A stretch of 64,000 bases of DNA from Brachybacterium sp. SGAir0954 (GTDB taxonomy: Bacteria > Actinomycetota > Actinomycetes > Actinomycetales > Dermabacteraceae): the NCBI RefSeq assembly GCF_005490785.1, contig NZ_CP027295.1, positions 1,674,001-1,738,000 of the forward strand. The letters run 5' to 3'. Within the stretch, counting starts at the first letter, position 1. Every line of letters begins with the position of its first letter. Below, one piece after another: positions 32,821-40,618 of the stretch. The translations under genes were made by a program, and so were the position numbers. The notes below the pieces were generated by a model. That model did not search any database. It was not told the DNA's origin and saw only the letters and a list, made by a program, of their open reading frames with translations.

Positions 32821-33870
32821 TCAGTACAGGTTGAGGAAGGCCTGGAGGACCTTGACGGTGGAGCCGTCGACCTCGTCGGAGCCGGTGTGGCTCGCGCCGA
32901 CCTCGTGCTCGAGACCCTTGACGGTGTCCTTGCCGATGACGCCGTCCTGGTCGGTCTTGACCCAGGCCTGGAGCGCCTTCGTGGTGGTCTCGTCGAGCTC
33001 GCCGGTCTGCTCGACGCCCAGCCAGTCCTGCAGCGCGGTGATGGTCTCGGGGCCCATCTTGCCGTCGACCTCGAGGGTGCCCGCGACCTGCAGGTCGGGG
33101 TTGCCCACGGCGCTCTTCGAGGAGCTGGTGGACTTCTTCGAGGAGGTCGACTCGGAGGTGGACGTCTTCGAGGAGGTGGACTTCTTCTCCGAGGAGGTGG
33201 ACTTCTTCGAGGAGGTCGACTCCGAGGAGGTGGACTTCTTCCCGGTCTTCTTGGTGAAGCCGTTGTCCGTGCAGTTGTCCGCGATGCCGTCACCGTCGCA
33301 GGACCAGTCGCCCTGCTTCTCGGTGGACTTCTTCTCGGTGGACTTCTTCTCGGAGGAGCTCGAGGTGGACGTGCGCTCGGTGGAGCGGTCCGACTTCTTC
33401 TCCGAGGAGCGGGACTCGCTCGAGCTCGAGGAGCTCGAGTCGGAGGACTTCGAGGAATCGGAGTCCGAGGAGCTGGAGTCCGAGGACGGGGAGGACGAGG
33501 TGTCCGCGCCGCCGGTGAGGTACTTGCCGCAGTTGGGCCACGCGCCGGCGCCCTGCTCGGCGAGGACCTTCTCCGCGACGGCGATCTGCTGGCTCTTGGT
33601 GGCCTTGTCCGCGGTGGAGGCGTACTGGCCGCCGCCGAAGCCCTGCCAGGTCGACTTCGAGAACTGGAGGCCGCCGTAGTAGCCGTTGCCGGTGTTGGTG
33701 GACCAGTTGCCGCTGGACTCGCACTGCGCGACCTGATCCCAGCCGCCGGCCGCGTCGGCCTGCTGGGCGGGAGCGGCGGCGAAGGCGCCGGCGGCGACGA
33801 CGGCGCCGCCGGCGAGGGTCAGCGCGGTGCGGCCCAGGAGGGACTTGCGCTCGGTGGTGCTGGTGGTCAT
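32821..33870 (-). CDS. Secreted resuscitation-promoting-factor-like muralytic protein
   Basis: A 349-residue exported protein. Signal peptide: residues 1-41 ending AQQADA-A. The Rpf (transglycosylase-like) domain follows: [39 protein letters not shown], with catalytic Glu in QCESSG (about 51) and the two domain Cys residues (CESS, PNCGKY). A Ser/Asp then Ser/Lys/Thr low-complexity linker (about 122-255) leads to a peptidoglycan-binding-like C-terminus ([18 protein letters not shown]...LQAFLNLY, about 265-349). It should cleave cell-wall glycan during growth or exit from dormancy. ATG 33870 has GAGGAG upstream. It is monocistronic. Confidence 0.9.
33115..33240 (-). repeat. Degenerate tandem repeats coding the Ser/Lys/Thr linker of the Rpf protein
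   Basis: Units encoding variants of [11 protein letters not shown] recur about five times in the linker. The DNA is imperfectly repeated (GAGGAGGTGGACTTCTTC-type units), so linker length may vary between strains. Confidence 0.6.
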
Positions 33871-33971
33871 GGGGTGCTCCTCAGGATGCTCGACGTAGGG
33901 GCCGCGACGCACGGAACCGATCAGCGGGAGCGCTGCGGGTGCGTCCGCGGCGAACGCAGGACTCAACCTAC

Positions 33972-35399: not shown

Positions 35400-36071
35400 A
35401 TGGATCCTGTCGCCCCTCCCCAGCTCCTGCTCGTCGAGGACGACCCGCAGCTGCGGGACATGCTCTCCGCACTCCTCGAGGACGAGGGGTACGCGGTGAC
35501 GACCGCCGCGGACGGCCATCGGGCCCTGCACCTCGCCCTCACCCGTGACCTCGACCTGATGCTCCTGGACCGCGGACTCCCGGGGCTCGAGGGTCTCGAC
35601 CTGCTGGGCCGACTCCGCGGCGCCGGGGTGGACGTGCCCGTGCTCGTGCTCTCCGCGCGCGGGAACCCCGCGGACCGGGTGGACGGGCTCGACGCCGGCG
35701 CCGAGGACTACCTCGCCAAGCCCTTCGACCTCGCGGAGCTCCTCGCCCGGCTGCGGGCGCTGCGCCGCCGGCACCGCGAGACCGCGGAGCTGCTGCGGAT
35801 CGGTGACGGCCGCAGCCTCGACGTGAGGGCGCACGAGGTGATCGGGGACGGGGCCCGGGTGTCCCTCACCGCGCGCGAGAGCGCGCTGCTCGAGGTGCTC
35901 GCTCGCTCCCCGTCCCAGGTGTTCGAGCGCGAGACCCTCCTGCGTCGGGCGCTCCCCGGGGCGGAGGACCTCGGCGTCGTCGACACCTGCGTCCACTACC
36001 TGCGCCGGAAGCTGGGCCGCGACGCGGTGACGACGGTGCGCGGGGTGGGCTACCGGCTGGGGGCGTCATGA
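35400..36071 (+). CDS. OmpR/PhoB-family response regulator
   Basis: A 223-residue response regulator. Receiver: VEDDPQLRD acidic pair, phospho-acceptor Asp57 in LMLLDRGLPG, LSARG and LAKPF. DNA-binding winged helix at about 130-222: LTARESALLEVLARSPSQVF, DTCVHYLRRKLG, VRGVGYRLG. It overlaps the kinase start by 4 bases (ATGA). It heads a gene string that continues with only 84 bases of spacing into the flavin/haem redox genes, so it probably controls them. Confidence 0.92.
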   Translation: MDPVAPPQLLLVEDDPQLRDMLSALLEDEGYAVTTAADGHRALHLALTRDLDLMLLDRGLPGLEGLDLLGRLRGAGVDVPVLVLSARGNPADRVDGLDAGAEDYLAKPFDLAELLARLRALRRRHRETAELLRIGDGRSLDVRAHEVIGDGARVSLTARESALLEVLARSPSQVFERETLLRRALPGAEDLGVVDTCVHYLRRKLGRDAVTTVRGVGYRLGAS

Positions 36072-37273
36072 TCGAGCGCACCCGACCGCTCGGCGAGGCG
36101 GACGCCCATCAGCTGCGCCGCACCGCCCGGCGCCTCTCCCTGCAGATCGCCGTCGTCATGGCCGCGGTGGTGGCGATCGTCGGGGCGACCGCGTTCGGTC
36201 TCGTCGCCGCCTCCCTGTCGCGCGCCACCGACCAGGAGCTCACCTCCGTGCGGGACGACGCCCGCGGCGACGAGCTCGGTGCCGGCACCTACGTGATCCG
36301 CGAGCACGAGGGGACCTTCACCGCCGCCGAGGACCTCCCGACCGGGCTGCCCGACGAGGACGCCCTCGACCGCGTGCAGGCGGGGGAGCAGCGCGTGGAC
36401 ACCCGCGTCGAGGCCGACGGCCACCGCTACGTGGTGCGCACCAGCCGTGGGGAGGGAGAGATCGTGCAGGTCGCCATCGACACCCGCGGCAACCGGGAGC
36501 AGCTGCAGCGGGTGGGGGCGGCGCTCGGCATCGGCGGCATCGCCGGTGTGGTCGTCGCCGCTCTCGTCGCGGACCGCCTCGCTCGACGGGCCATGCGTCC
36601 CCTCGCCGACGCCCTCGCTCGCCAGCGCCGATTCGTCGCCGACGCCGGCCACGAGCTGCGCACCCCGCTGACCTTGCTCAGCACGCGTGTGCAGATCCTG
36701 CGCCGTCGTCGCGAGCGGGAGAGCGACCCGGAGGCGACGGACCGGGAGATCGCCGCGATCCAGCAGGACGCCGCATCGCTCACCGCTCTCCTGGAGGAGC
36801 TGCTCGAGGCTGCCGACGACCGGGAGGTCGAGCTCGAGGACGTGGACCTCCGCGCCCTCGCCGAGGCGGCGCTGGACTCGGCCGGCGCCGAGGCGGAGCG
36901 TGCCGGGGTCGAGCTCCGTCTCGCCGGGGACAGCGCGGTGCACGTCCGTGCCACCACCGTCGGGGTCCGCCGCATCGTGCAGTCCCTTCTCGCCAACGCC
37001 CTGGACCACACCCGCAGCCGGGTGGAGCTCCACGTCTCCACGGGGCCGCGCGGCGGCGTGCTCCGCATCGCCGACGACGGCCCCGGCTTCCCCGCGGGGG
37101 ACGCCGTCTTCGAGCGCTTCGCCTCCCAGCGCAGCGGTGAGGCGTCACGCCACCACTACGGCCTGGGCCTGTCCCTCGTGGCGGACGTCGTCCGCCGCCT
37201 CGAGGGGGAGGTGCGGATCGATCGCTCCGCGCCCGGCGGTGTGATCGAGGTGACGCTCCCTCCGGCCCCCTGA
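36068..37273 (+). CDS. Two-component sensor histidine kinase
   Basis: A 401-residue membrane kinase. Helix 1 is about residues 25-50 and helix 2 about 153-175, flanking a roughly 100-residue extracytoplasmic sensor that is rich in Asp, Glu and Arg and has no recognised fold. H-box RRFVADAGHELRTPLTLL (His about 195), N-box QSLLANALDHT, G1 IADDGPGFPAGD and G2 YGLGLSLV are all present. It partners the overlapping regulator gene and may respond to redox or metal conditions given the genes downstream; that is inference. Confidence 0.91.
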   Translation: MIERTRPLGEADAHQLRRTARRLSLQIAVVMAAVVAIVGATAFGLVAASLSRATDQELTSVRDDARGDELGAGTYVIREHEGTFTAAEDLPTGLPDEDALDRVQAGEQRVDTRVEADGHRYVVRTSRGEGEIVQVAIDTRGNREQLQRVGAALGIGGIAGVVVAALVADRLARRAMRPLADALARQRRFVADAGHELRTPLTLLSTRVQILRRRRERESDPEATDREIAAIQQDAASLTALLEELLEAADDREVELEDVDLRALAEAALDSAGAEAERAGVELRLAGDSAVHVRATTVGVRRIVQSLLANALDHTRSRVELHVSTGPRGGVLRIADDGPGFPAGDAVFERFASQRSGEASRHHYGLGLSLVADVVRRLEGEVRIDRSAPGGVIEVTLPPAP

Positions 37274-37357
37274 GGCCCGATCCGGAAGAGAACCGGAAGA
37301 CTCCACCGCCACGCTGTGCACAGGATCGGGACGGACCCGATGCCGAAGGAGGCTCCG

Positions 37358-37741
37358 ATGAGCATCAGGGAGAGTGGCCGACGTCATGGCCGCGTGGCGA
37401 CCGGCGTGATCGCGGGCACCGCACTCGCCGCCACCGGGATCGGTGCGGGTGCGCTGTGGATCGGGGAGCAGGGTGCGGCGAGCACGTCGGCCGCCGCGAC
37501 GACCCCGGTCGCCACGAGCAGCGCCGCGCCGACGGACCCCACCACGACGCCGTCGACGCAGTCGACGCAGTCGACGGACACGGCCGGCACGTCCTCGTCC
37601 GGCACGTCGTCGTCGGACACGTCCTCGTCGGACACGTCGTCGTCGGACAGGTCGTCGTCGGACAGGTCCTCGCAGGCCTCCTCGCCGACCGTGTCCCGCG
37701 GCTCCGGCGGCTCCTCCCACGCCTCCAGCCAGGGGTCCTGA
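37358..37741 (+). CDS. Ser/Thr-rich membrane-anchored or secreted protein of the redox cluster
   Basis: A 127-residue protein with GAAGGAGG ribosome binding site. A basic start (MSIRESGRRHGR) and a hydrophobic stretch (about 19-42, GVIAGTALAATGIGAGALWI) make an N-terminal anchor or signal. The rest is almost only Ser, Thr, Ala, Asp and Gly: STQ repeats, then five TSSSD/RSSSD units, ending SRGSGGSSHASSQGS. There is no FMN-binding domain and no Cys. One base separates it from the ApbE-like gene, so the two are co-translated. It could be an ApbE flavinylation target or a spacer for surface electron transfer; function is unknown. Confidence 0.75.
   Translation: MSIRESGRRHGRVATGVIAGTALAATGIGAGALWIGEQGAASTSAAATTPVATSSAAPTDPTTTPSTQSTQSTDTAGTSSSGTSSSDTSSSDTSSSDRSSSDRSSQASSPTVSRGSGGSSHASSQGS
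37590..37669 (+). repeat. 15-base tandem repeats coding TSSSD units
   Basis: Five adjoining copies of a 15-base unit (consensus ACGTCGTCGTCGGAC) encode TSSSG-TSSSD-TSSSD-RSSSD-RSSSD-type units, preceded by a 9-base repeat encoding STQ. Copy number changes would keep the frame. Confidence 0.65.
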
Positions 37742-37742
37742 G

Positions 37743-38645
37743 ATGACCGCTCGGATCAGCTGGTCGCTCTGGAGCGCCACCGCGGAGCTCGTCGTCGTCG
37801 ACCCCTCCGAGCTGCGCATCGCGCGCGAGCTCGCCGACGCCGTCCTCGCGGAGGTCGAGCGCACCTGCTCGAGGCACCGGGACGACGCCGAGCTGCGGGC
37901 GTTCGAGGGGCGCGACCTCGTCGACGCGCCGGTCAGCCCGGTCCTCGCCCGCCTGCTCGAGGACGCGATCGACGCGGCGCGCCGCACGGACGGACTCGTG
38001 GACCCCACCCTCGGCGACCGCCTCGAGGTGCACGGCTTCGCGGGCGCGGCCGGGGTGCGGGCGGCCGTCGTGCACCGGGCCACCTGGCGGGACGTCTCGC
38101 TGCACGCGGGGCGGCTCACCGCCCCCGCCGGCGTGCGCTTCGACCTCGGCGCGACCGGCAAGGCGAGCGCCGCGGACCTCCTCGTCGAGCACCTGCGGGA
38201 CGACCCCCGCATCCACCACGGCGTGCTGGTGTCCCTGGGCGGGGACCTCCGTGCCACCGGCAGCGGACCCGACGGCGGCTGGCAGATCGACGTGCGAGAC
38301 GGCGCCGGCGAGCCCGGCCAGCAGGTCCGACTCCACGACGGCGGAGCCCTGGCCACCTCCAGCACCCTCCACCGGCGCCGCCTGCTCGGGGAACACGAGG
38401 TGCACCACATCCTCGACCCGCGGCACCTCGGACCGGCGACGGACACCTGGCGCACGGTGAGCTGCGCCGCGCCGACCTGTGCCGCCGCCAACACCGCCTC
38501 GACCGCGGCGATCGTGCTCGGGTGGGATGCTCCCGACTGGCTCGAGGCCCGGGGCGTCCCTGCCCGCCTCGTCGCGGCCGACCGCCAGGTGCTGACCACC
38601 TCCTCCTGGCCCAGCCCGGTCCCCGCGGAGGTCCGCCATGGATGA
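37743..38645 (+). CDS. ApbE-like FAD:protein FMN transferase
   Basis: A 300-residue protein of the ApbE family, which attaches FMN covalently to Thr/Ser of exported redox proteins. Seen: FDLGATGKASAADLLVEHL (about residue 137, the DLGGxAKG block), VLVSLGGDLRATG, EVHHILDPRHLGPA (about 221, the HIIDPxTG block) and the metal-binding end AAANTASTAAIVLG. It is shorter than usual and has no visible signal peptide or lipobox, unlike most exported ApbE proteins. It overlaps the haem membrane-protein gene by 8 bases. Confidence 0.85.
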   Translation: MTARISWSLWSATAELVVVDPSELRIARELADAVLAEVERTCSRHRDDAELRAFEGRDLVDAPVSPVLARLLEDAIDAARRTDGLVDPTLGDRLEVHGFAGAAGVRAAVVHRATWRDVSLHAGRLTAPAGVRFDLGATGKASAADLLVEHLRDDPRIHHGVLVSLGGDLRATGSGPDGGWQIDVRDGAGEPGQQVRLHDGGALATSSTLHRRRLLGEHEVHHILDPRHLGPATDTWRTVSCAAPTCAAANTASTAAIVLGWDAPDWLEARGVPARLVAADRQVLTTSSWPSPVPAEVRHG

Positions 38646-39213
38646 GGTGCTGTGGGCGACCGCGCGGGCGAGCGGGGTCGTCGCCCTCGTGCTGCTCACC
38701 CTCTCCGTGGTGCTGGGCATCCTGACCCGGGGCGGCCGGCCGATGATCGGGCTGCCGCGCTTCGCCGTCGCCCACCTCCACCGGGACGCCTCCCTGCTCG
38801 CCACCGCGTTCCTGACCCTGCACGTGGTGACCCTGCTCGGCGACAGCTACGCCGGACTCCGCCTCGTCGACCTGATGGTCCCCTTCCTCGCCGCGCGCGA
38901 CGCGCTCTGGCAGGGGCTCGGCACCACCGCCCTCGACCTGCTGCTCGCCGTCATCGTCACCGCTCTGCTCCGCAGGCGCCTCCCGGCCGCCGTGTTCCGC
39001 ACCGTCCATCTCGCGGTCCTGCCGCTGTGGGGGATCGCGCTGCTGCACGCCCTCGGATCGGGCACCGACGCGGGCACGCTCTGGTTCCGCGTCCTCGCCG
39101 CCGCGTCCGCGGCGATCGTGCTCGCGGCGACCCTCTGGCGGCTGCTCGCCCCCTCCTTCCGCACCCATCCGGCGGCGCGCGCCCGCCGCACCCCCGAACG
39201 GAGCCTCAGATGA
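38638..39213 (+). CDS. Ferric-reductase-like transmembrane haem protein
   Basis: A 191-residue membrane protein with five or six helices. Helix pairs carry His residues in register for two b-type haems: FAVAHLHRDASLLATAFLTLHVVTLL (about residues 41-66) and AVFRTVHLAVLPLWGIALLHALGSG (about 120-145). No FAD- or NADPH-binding domain is attached, so electrons must come from a partner, most simply the NuoF-like protein encoded next. It overlaps that gene by 4 bases. Confidence 0.82.
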   Translation: MDEVLWATARASGVVALVLLTLSVVLGILTRGGRPMIGLPRFAVAHLHRDASLLATAFLTLHVVTLLGDSYAGLRLVDLMVPFLAARDALWQGLGTTALDLLLAVIVTALLRRRLPAAVFRTVHLAVLPLWGIALLHALGSGTDAGTLWFRVLAAASAAIVLAATLWRLLAPSFRTHPAARARRTPERSLR

Positions 39214-40355
39214 GCACTCTCGCCCTCCCGGCCCCCGGCCTGCTCGACCCCGCCCGCCCGGAGCCGCTGCCCAGGGCGGACGACCTGCCCGCGCAGATCA
39301 CCCGCTCCGGGCTGACCGGACGCGGCGGCGCCGGCTTCCCCGTCGGTGCGAAGATCGCCGCGCTGCGACGTCCTCCTGCCGCGATCGTCGCGAACGCGTC
39401 GGAGGGGGAGCCGCTCAGCGCGAAGGACACGGTGCTCCTGCGGGAGTCCCCGCACGCGGTGATCGACGGCCTCCTGCTGCTCTCCGACGCCCTCGCCCCG
39501 CGCGCCGCCCTGACGATCATGGTCCACCCGCGGTCCGCGGCGGGGGTGCGTGCCGCGCTCGCCGCACGCCCCGACGGACACCGGGTGCGGCTGCAGGTCG
39601 CCCAGGAGCGCTTCGTCGCGGGGGAGGCGACCGCGGTCGCCGCGGCGCTCGCCGGCGGTGAGCAGATCCCCGCCGACCACCCGCACCACCTCACCGAGAA
39701 GGGCCTCCGCGGCGGCCCGGTGCTCGTGCAGAACGCCGAGACCCTCGCGCACGTCGCCCGCATCGCCCGTCACGGCGCCGAGGCGTTCCGCTCCGCCGGC
39801 AGCGCGGAGGACCCGGGGACCCGGCTCGTGACGATCGCGCGCCCCGAGGGAGCCGAGAGCGTCCTCGAGGTGCCCGGCGGAGCCACCCTCCGCGAGGTGC
39901 TGCACCTCGCGGGCACGGAGCCCGGCATGCTCGATGCCGTGCTGGTCGGCGGCTACCACGGGCGCTGGGCACGGCCCGAACAGCTCGACCTGCCGCTCGG
40001 ACCTCGCCCCGCCCCGGGCGTGCACGGCGCGGGCGCCGGGGTGCTGATGCTCCTGGACCGGGGCCGCTGCCCGCTGGCCGTGACCACGGCGATCCTCGAT
40101 CATCTCGCCGCGCAGTCCGCGGGGCAGTGCGGCCCCTGCGTGCTGGGCCTGCCGCGCATCGCCGCGTCGATGCACGACCTCGAGGCCGGACACGGCGATC
40201 CCGCACGGCTCCGGCGACGGCTCGAGGCCGTCGCGGGCCGCGGCGCCTGCCGTCACCCCGACGGCACCGCGCAGCTCGCCGCCTCTACGCTCACGGCCTT
40301 CGGTCCTGAGCTCACCGCCCATGCGGCCGGCCGCTGCACGGGGTGGCGGCGATGA
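39210..40355 (+). CDS. NuoF-like (complex I 51-kDa) NADH-dehydrogenase subunit
   Basis: A 381-residue soluble protein. FMN/NADH region: GLTGRGGAGFPVGAKIAAL and ANASEGEPLSAKDTVLL (about 30-75), corresponding to GRGGAGFPTG and NADEGEPG in NuoF. A ubiquitin-like SLBB segment follows (VLEVPGGATLREVLHLAG, about 215). The C-terminal cluster site reads SAGQCGPCVLG plus GACRHPDG; compared with SCGKCTPC of NuoF, the first Cys is Ala, so a 4Fe-4S cluster would lack one usual ligand. It likely takes electrons from NADH for the ferredoxin and haem protein of this operon rather than complex I, since no other nuo gene is present. Confidence 0.83.
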   Translation: MSTLALPAPGLLDPARPEPLPRADDLPAQITRSGLTGRGGAGFPVGAKIAALRRPPAAIVANASEGEPLSAKDTVLLRESPHAVIDGLLLLSDALAPRAALTIMVHPRSAAGVRAALAARPDGHRVRLQVAQERFVAGEATAVAAALAGGEQIPADHPHHLTEKGLRGGPVLVQNAETLAHVARIARHGAEAFRSAGSAEDPGTRLVTIARPEGAESVLEVPGGATLREVLHLAGTEPGMLDAVLVGGYHGRWARPEQLDLPLGPRPAPGVHGAGAGVLMLLDRGRCPLAVTTAILDHLAAQSAGQCGPCVLGLPRIAASMHDLEAGHGDPARLRRRLEAVAGRGACRHPDGTAQLAASTLTAFGPELTAHAAGRCTGWRR

Positions 40356-40618
40356 CGGGGGAGCGCCGGGAGGCCGCCCGCCTCCACCTCGACTGGACCC
40401 GCTGCGAGGCACGCGGCGCGTGCCTCGAGCTCCTCGAGGGCACGCTCGTCGGCGACGAGGACGGCTTCCCCCTCGCCGTCGGTCGGCCGCCCGGTCAGCG
40501 GACCGATGTGCCGATCGCCCGCGAGGAGGTCGCCGCCGCCCGCGAGGCGGTGGGCGCCTGCCCGCGGCTCGCGCTGCAGCTGCTCAGGCCGCGCCGCGGC
40601 CGCGCGGGCGACGCCTGA
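40352..40618 (+). CDS. Small ferredoxin, [3Fe-4S]-type
   Basis: An 88-residue ferredoxin. The pattern RCEARGAC (Cx5C) followed much later by ACPRLAL (CP) gives three Cys ligands, as in actinobacterial single-cluster [3Fe-4S] ferredoxins. The start ATGA overlaps the NuoF-like stop by 4 bases. It probably relays electrons between the NuoF-like protein and the haem membrane protein. Its 3' end overlaps the convergent vWA gene by 35 bases. Confidence 0.78.
   Translation: MTGERREAARLHLDWTRCEARGACLELLEGTLVGDEDGFPLAVGRPPGQRTDVPIAREEVAAAREAVGACPRLALQLLRPRRGRAGDA

Follow-up and report, generated by a model that had tools for sequence, protein, structure and literature searches.

A putative flavin carrier without a flavin-binding domain in a membrane redox cassette of Brachybacterium

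We analyzed a 64,000-nucleotide window from the genome of Brachybacterium sp. SGAir0954 (NZ_CP027295.1, positions 1,674,001 to 1,738,000). A gene cluster at positions 35400 to 40618 of this window encodes an ApbE-like flavin transferase, a haem-binding membrane protein, a NuoF-like protein, a ferredoxin, and a small Ser/Thr-rich protein with a membrane anchor, which we will call the tail protein. We propose, with moderate confidence, that the cluster encodes a membrane electron exporter in which flavin mononucleotide (FMN) is attached, outside the membrane, to the C-terminal serine of the disordered, anchored tail. We infer the flavinylation, the membrane side, the order of electron flow, and the export role from the sequences.

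The gene cluster and its host genome

The features of the cluster, in window coordinates, are:

35400..36071, + strand: OmpR-type response regulator (Response_reg 3.7e-29, Trans_reg_C 9.1e-17)
36068..37273, + strand: sensor histidine kinase (HATPase_c 6.1e-16, HisKA 1.9e-10)
37358..37741, + strand: Ser/Thr-rich anchored tail protein, 127 amino acids, putative flavin carrier (no Pfam match, one helix)
37730..37738, + strand: codons for the C-terminal Q-G-S, the Ser codon being followed by the stop (sequence, motif counts)
37743..38645, + strand: ApbE, Asn type, with Ser206, His222 and Asn250 (PF02424 1.1e-40, alignment to solved ApbE chains)
38638..39213, + strand: ferric-reductase-like (MsrQ-like) membrane protein with four conserved His (PF01794 3.4e-8)
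39210..40355, + strand: NuoF-like NADH-binding protein with Ala304 for the first cluster Cys (PF01512 1.2e-28, PF10589 1.1e-13)
40352..40618, + strand: three-Cys ferredoxin (PF13459, Fer4_15, 7e-10)

The sequence and the profile matches confirm the seven genes (a two-component pair and the tail, ApbE, haem, NuoF-like and ferredoxin genes) that an earlier note on this DNA had recognized. The note also described the genes after the kinase as overlapping or 1 base apart, which holds from the tail gene on: the tail gene starts after a spacing of 84 bases from the kinase gene and ends 1 base before apbE, followed by overlaps of 8 bases (apbE and haem gene), 4 bases (haem and NuoF-like genes), and 4 bases (NuoF-like and ferredoxin genes). 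The response regulator and kinase genes overlap by 4 bases. The ATG of the tail gene at 37358 is preceded by AGGAGG; earlier in-frame starts are present.

The host genome is a single contig of 3.41 Mb, and whole-genome profile searches found a single ApbE and no match to FMN_bind (PF04205), so the absence of an FMN-binding partner, first remarked on for the cluster, extends to the entire genome. There were also no matches to NQR2_RnfD_RnfE (PF03116, the NqrB/RnfD subunit of Nqr/Rnf complexes), DUF2271 (PF10029), or DUF3570 (PF12094); Flavodoxin_4 and FMN_red were not searched.

We considered that this might be an ordinary MsrQ-like system with its FMN_bind protein encoded elsewhere, as MsrQ-like clusters in the literature typically include an FMN-binding gene (PMC8238504; here and below, statements about cited papers refer to excerpts of them). 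For the host genome, the whole-genome search found no such partner and largely refutes this explanation, which we consider most improbable. The relatives also speak against it. We followed up 66 genomes, namely 65 that have an ApbE match with E <= ~1e-22 plus G049. FMN_bind is absent from 35 of these and is present somewhere in the remaining 31. By coordinate comparison, none of the 31 has FMN_bind within 10 kb of the related ApbE (the nearest is ~13 kb away, in G158), which disposes of the possibility, raised in the earlier note, that homologous clusters always include a separate FMN-binding gene. In G138, FMN_bind adjoins another ApbE of the same genome, of the Asp type (L108).

The tail protein

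The tail protein has no Pfam match at E 0.1, and hence no PF04205 domain. Its predicted structure has one N-terminal helix (residues 3-29) and no other element; the mean predicted local distance difference test score (pLDDT) is 51.9, and a low value is expected because the prediction is from a single sequence. After the helix, 53% of the residues are Ser or Thr, and the protein ends with SHASSQGS, so that its last residue is Ser127. Among relatives, the length after the helix varies from 40 to 160 residues. In 46 of 47 tail proteins, the charge is more positive on the N-side of the helix than on the C-side, so by the positive-inside rule, the tail is probably outside the membrane. An RR pair stands before the helix in 39 of the 47, and a stricter twin-arginine translocation (Tat) pattern fits 0 of the 47.

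We also considered that the tail might lie in the cytosol, where its flavin would connect the ferredoxin with the haem protein on the inner side. Enzyme and target would then share one compartment, in keeping with an ApbE that has no visible signal peptide, and no export would be needed. But the charge bias in 46 of 47 proteins puts the tail on the other side, and we view a cytosolic tail as very unlikely.

Inspected by eye, an open reading frame (ORF) elsewhere in the window (32821-33966, - strand) looks like a secreted, transglycosylase-like protein whose linkers are long and rich in Ser and Lys. It would be a further low-complexity exported protein of the host genome.

A conserved C-terminal motif

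Relatives of the tail protein share a C-terminal motif. The discovery loci were hand-chosen, and the motif was noticed first and counted later on overlapping loci; only the 43 held-out loci described below are independent. The rule for picking tail ORFs ignored the last six residues, and its filter changed between rounds (hydrophobic share <0.12 or 0.13, then 0.19). The counts for the 63 discovery loci and for the 72-row clade discussed below do not include the window itself.

At discovery loci with Asn-type ApbE, a low-complexity ORF with a single transmembrane helix precedes apbE and ends in [ST]-x-G-S-stop in 46 of the 52 picked ORFs. Across all 63 of these loci, 46 have [ST]xGS-stop, 3 have [ST]xA[ST], 1 has SGAT among its final 15 residues, 2 have other endings, 8 have no ORF by the rule, and 3 are cut. 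Some of the loci with no ORF by the rule do have a candidate: the filter dropped a tail ending in SRGS in L044, an ORF elsewhere in L085 ends in TSGGS, and in the split operons L096 and L110 the tail precedes the haem gene.

In an earlier pick that included the window, 44 of 49 tails ended in [ST]xGS, whereas 1000 shuffles of the last 30 residues gave 1.3 such tails on average and never more than 6. Within the tails, this pattern occupies 59 of 1862 four-residue windows. Of the other upstream ORFs, 6/95 end this way; these are probably the tails of the six loci (L009, L044, L075, L093, L095, L113) whose [ST]xGS-ending ORFs were missed by the first filter.

Three predictions were written before we inspected the 43 held-out loci, 5 of which have no ApbE match. 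At Asn-type loci, the predicted [ST]xGS tail end was found in 8 of 11. The three misses (L157, L160, L161) share one genus label and the ending CYxxPSGxxxC[YS], which may form a disulphide loop that encloses a different acceptor site.

ApbE proteins recognize DxxTGA[ST] and attach FMN to its last residue (PMC12052999, PMC8238504), and a seven-residue flavinylation tag is most effective when placed at a terminus (PMC12052999). The canonical target D-x-x-[ST]-G-A-[ST] is not at the end of the window tail, but it does end the tails of L066 (DSNTGAS) and L117 (DATTGAS, Glu type). The tail of L076 has HATSGATS, without the Asp. In L104 (Glu type), one ORF ends in THTTTGGS and another contains THTTTGAS. 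Because some relatives have the canonical target at the end, the common [ST]xGS ending looks like an ApbE target that is cut off after the acceptor residue. The suggestion in the earlier note that the tail is an unusual flavin carrier thus gains support from its conservation as a neighbor and from a C-terminus like an ApbE target.

Actinobacterial walls commonly have long Ser/Thr/Pro/Gly-rich stretches. The low-complexity protein might therefore be a flavin-free wall tether or assembly factor, with the target of ApbE elsewhere in the cell, and a tail whose length is free to vary from 40 to 160 residues fits this explanation. However, a plain tether does not need four fixed residues at its end, and no known acceptor domain was found in the host genome (the Flavodoxin_4 and FMN_red types were outside that search). 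We consider a bare tether quite unlikely.

The tail is tied to the electron path, beyond ApbE alone, because in the discovery loci L078, L097, and L099 there is no apbE beside the haem gene and the tail gene directly precedes the haem gene.

The ApbE protein

The window ApbE matches PF02424 with 140 bits (the curated cut-off is 25.6). Ser240, His256, and Asp284 of 4xdt, which we take to be Ftp of T. pallidum, align with Ser206, His222, and Asn250 of the window protein (positions counted by hand). According to a review of ApbE, Ser, His, and Asp are the conserved catalytic residues. The Asp of FmnB binds both Mg ions (PMC8906456). In our ApbE tree (rooted for drawing only), one clade of 72 rows (support 100/93) has Asn in 71 and an unclear residue in the other. 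Glu predominates on the opposite side, in 30 of 33 rows, and Asp is found in 6 rows overall. The Asn clade spans ~27 family labels, and its counts are not independent because 15 of the 71 Asn rows belong to one family (f36). The triad Ser and His are each kept in 110 of 113 ApbE sequences. No signal peptide was visible by eye at the ApbE N-termini (no predictor was run), and cytosolic ApbEs are known, for example from Klebsiella (review). A two-sequence structure prediction of ApbE was poor (mean pLDDT 48.9) and was not used.

These sequences raise the possibility that the Asn-type ApbE does not transfer flavin to proteins: the enzyme might be inactive in this role, split flavin adenine dinucleotide (FAD), or be a flavin-holding subunit, and the end of the tail would dock it to the membrane complex. 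Replacement of a Mg-binding Asp in 71 of the 72 rows of the clade fits with this, as does the crippling of FmnB by Ala at the Asp position. But the Ser and His of the triad are retained, the tail end is like a known target, of which some relatives have the canonical form, and at loci with apbE elsewhere the tail gene accompanies the haem gene. We consider this explanation unlikely.

The proposed electron path

The haem protein matches PF01794 with 34 bits (cut-off 28), and His48, 62, 124, and 137 are each conserved in 68/68 or 67/67 sequences. The NuoF-like protein retains the NADH and FMN motifs, and it has three of the four Cys that bind the 4Fe-4S cluster of NuoF, with Ala304 in place of the first. 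In its relatives, the first Cys of CxxCxxC is replaced by Ala in 62 of 64, and by Thr or Leu in the other two. Because this Cys is lost, the subfamily may have an altered iron-sulphur cluster. In the ferredoxin, Cys18, 24, and 70 are invariant across 50 aligned sequences.

From these protein families, we infer the order of electron flow. The NuoF-like protein would accept electrons from reduced nicotinamide adenine dinucleotide (NADH), and the ferredoxin would relay them to the membrane haem protein, whose four His would bind two b haems and which would pass electrons on to the external FMN. The order in the earlier note (NADH, NuoF-like protein, ferredoxin, haem protein, external acceptor) is plausible. 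A cytosolic ApbE would transfer FMN from FAD to Ser127, and the tail, outside and with no folded flavin domain, would be a swinging tether that carries the FMN to an acceptor. We rejected the haem, NuoF-like, and ferredoxin proteins as targets of ApbE: the alignments show no [ST]G[AG][ST] site that is common to the relatives of any of them.

Weighing the proposal

Several results weigh against our proposal. Among the Asn-type loci, 6 of the 52 picked ORFs and 3 of the 11 held-out loci do not fit, and at 8 of 63 loci the rule picked no ORF. For Glu-type loci we had predicted [ST]GA[ST] at the end or close to it, as in 5 of 8 discovery loci, but the rule found this in 0 of 23 held-out loci, although a looser look finds SSGAS in L170. 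Instead, these 23 have [ST]xA[ST] with x not G (5), [ST]xGS (1), other Ser ends (2), different endings (5), or no ORF (10); with the looser look, several tails end in GS, AS, TS, or SS. A link in which Asn enzymes go with GS tails and Glu enzymes with GAS tails thus failed in the held-out set. The prediction for Asp-type relatives fared no better: at the 4 held-out Asp-type loci, scans did not find the canonical motif (FMN_bind was not searched there). And four held-out haem loci without ApbE (L150, L151, L171, L187) showed no [ST]xGS tail; their haem proteins are more distant, and the tail of L171 ends in TTTTKAS. Overall, the tail motif is firm among loci whose ApbE falls in the window's clade. 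Beyond that clade it is looser, though many tails there have GS, AS, TS, or SS as their last residues.

The chemistry also raises objections. SQGS of the window deviates from SGA[ST], and Ser is reported to be a poorer FMN acceptor than Thr. Because ApbE appears to be cytosolic, the modified tail would have to be exported afterwards. The window ApbE lacks the catalytic Ser-His-Asp, with Asn250 at the position of the Asp, and Ala in place of the Asp of FmnB greatly reduced or abolished activity (PMC8906456).

An idea of our own would account for the change from Asp to Asn: the carboxylate of the tail's terminal Ser might do the Asp's part at the metal site. Flavinylation by this cytosolic ApbE clade would then be substrate-assisted, with FMN on a disordered tether that extends 40-160 residues past the helix and would swing from the membrane haem to acceptors within the cell wall or past it. 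We offer this tentatively, as a possible but rather doubtful mechanism.

We also observed that a second exported protein, its C-terminus rich in Asp and Glu, is often encoded just upstream in Glu-type clusters (L159, L164, L165, L167, L168, L173, L174, L178, L186).

Distribution of the cassette

Conservation of gene order was another point on which the earlier note could have failed. The order ApbE, haem protein, NuoF-like protein, ferredoxin is kept in 35 of 41 hand-chosen loci, mostly ApbE matches, and because of this count, the recurrence of the four-gene order exceeds chance. In the other loci (L046, which is at a contig end, L053, L067, L072, L078, and L079), one or more of the four genes are missing.

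ApbE matches were found in 109 of 394 genomes of the class, and the haem protein has a relative in 62 of the 66 follow-up genomes with related ApbE. Within the genus, we found no clear relative of it in 35 other genomes, just two partial matches (E ~1e-3). Seven plasmid records match the haem protein, and the cassette is complete in the three that we inspected (Cnuibacter, Rhodococcus). A quick tree of 71 rows puts the window ApbE at the shortest path distance from the copy on the Cnuibacter plasmid, and the smallest supported group to which the window ApbE belongs comprises two rows (support 98). The patchy distribution and the plasmid copies suggest that the cassette was gained horizontally.

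In L041 (63% identity) and in L146, the Cnuibacter plasmid, a relative of the response regulator is encoded immediately before the cassette. In L146, the cassette lies among genes for a VIT family protein, a CDF transporter, ArsR regulators, and a P-type ATPase, a hint of metal-related redox chemistry. We noticed in passing no common flanking gene that would name the acceptor, but we made no count. Our gene tables for the three plasmids list no gene where the tail ORF lies (L146 3715-4107, L147 3785-4060, L148 3785-4060); these tables are incomplete by design, and the original records may list it.

Comparison with known systems

The MsrQ-like flavinylation clusters of Actinobacteria (Meheust et al. 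2021, PMC8238504) likewise combine a PF01794 haem protein with ApbE, and the window has both, including the haem-binding His. A NuoF-like protein was noted in 31 of 1797 such clusters (PMC8238504). A gene with an FMN-binding domain is typical of them, though not universal (PMC8238504), whereas the putative carrier of the window is domain-free in a genome with 0 FMN_bind. Also, that search retained only genes with a signal peptide or lipidation site (PMC8238504), and the window ApbE has no visible signal.

The window ApbE shares the PF02424 fold family and the triad Ser and His with ApbE, Ftp, and FmnB (PMC12052999, PMC8906456), but has Asn for the triad Asp, and its probable target is a C-terminal [ST]xGS. 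Other targets of ApbE also lack an FMN_bind domain: the DUF2271 and DUF3570 substrates of orphan ApbEs (PMC8238504) and the Flavodoxin_4 and FMN_red substrates (PMC11334425), with the motif of FMN_red targets in an unstructured C-terminal extension (PMC11334425). In all four of these families, the motif is added to or lies inside a folded domain, while no folded domain is predicted for the window tail. The NuoF-like protein shares the NADH and FMN motifs and three cluster Cys with NuoF, HydB, and NfnB (PF01512, PF10589), but lacks the first Cys of CxxCxxC and is partnered with a three-Cys ferredoxin.

We found no domain-free carrier with a terminal acceptor in the literature that we searched, which was open-access, with subscription papers mostly outside it. 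MsrQ-like flavinylated systems are known as a kind; the carrier and the transferase appear to be new variations on it. The C-terminal motif, the Asn of the ApbE triad, and the lost Cys of the NuoF-like protein go beyond the earlier note.

Implications

If confirmed, this arrangement would explain flavin-attaching enzymes that apparently lack a target. Tail proteins would be a class of targets that is invisible to domain searches, because it is chiefly the last four residues that are conserved. If our proposal is true, then covalent flavin would be independent of a binding fold, and a flexible tether would define its reach. Many actinobacteria would then possess an uncounted route for moving electrons outward.

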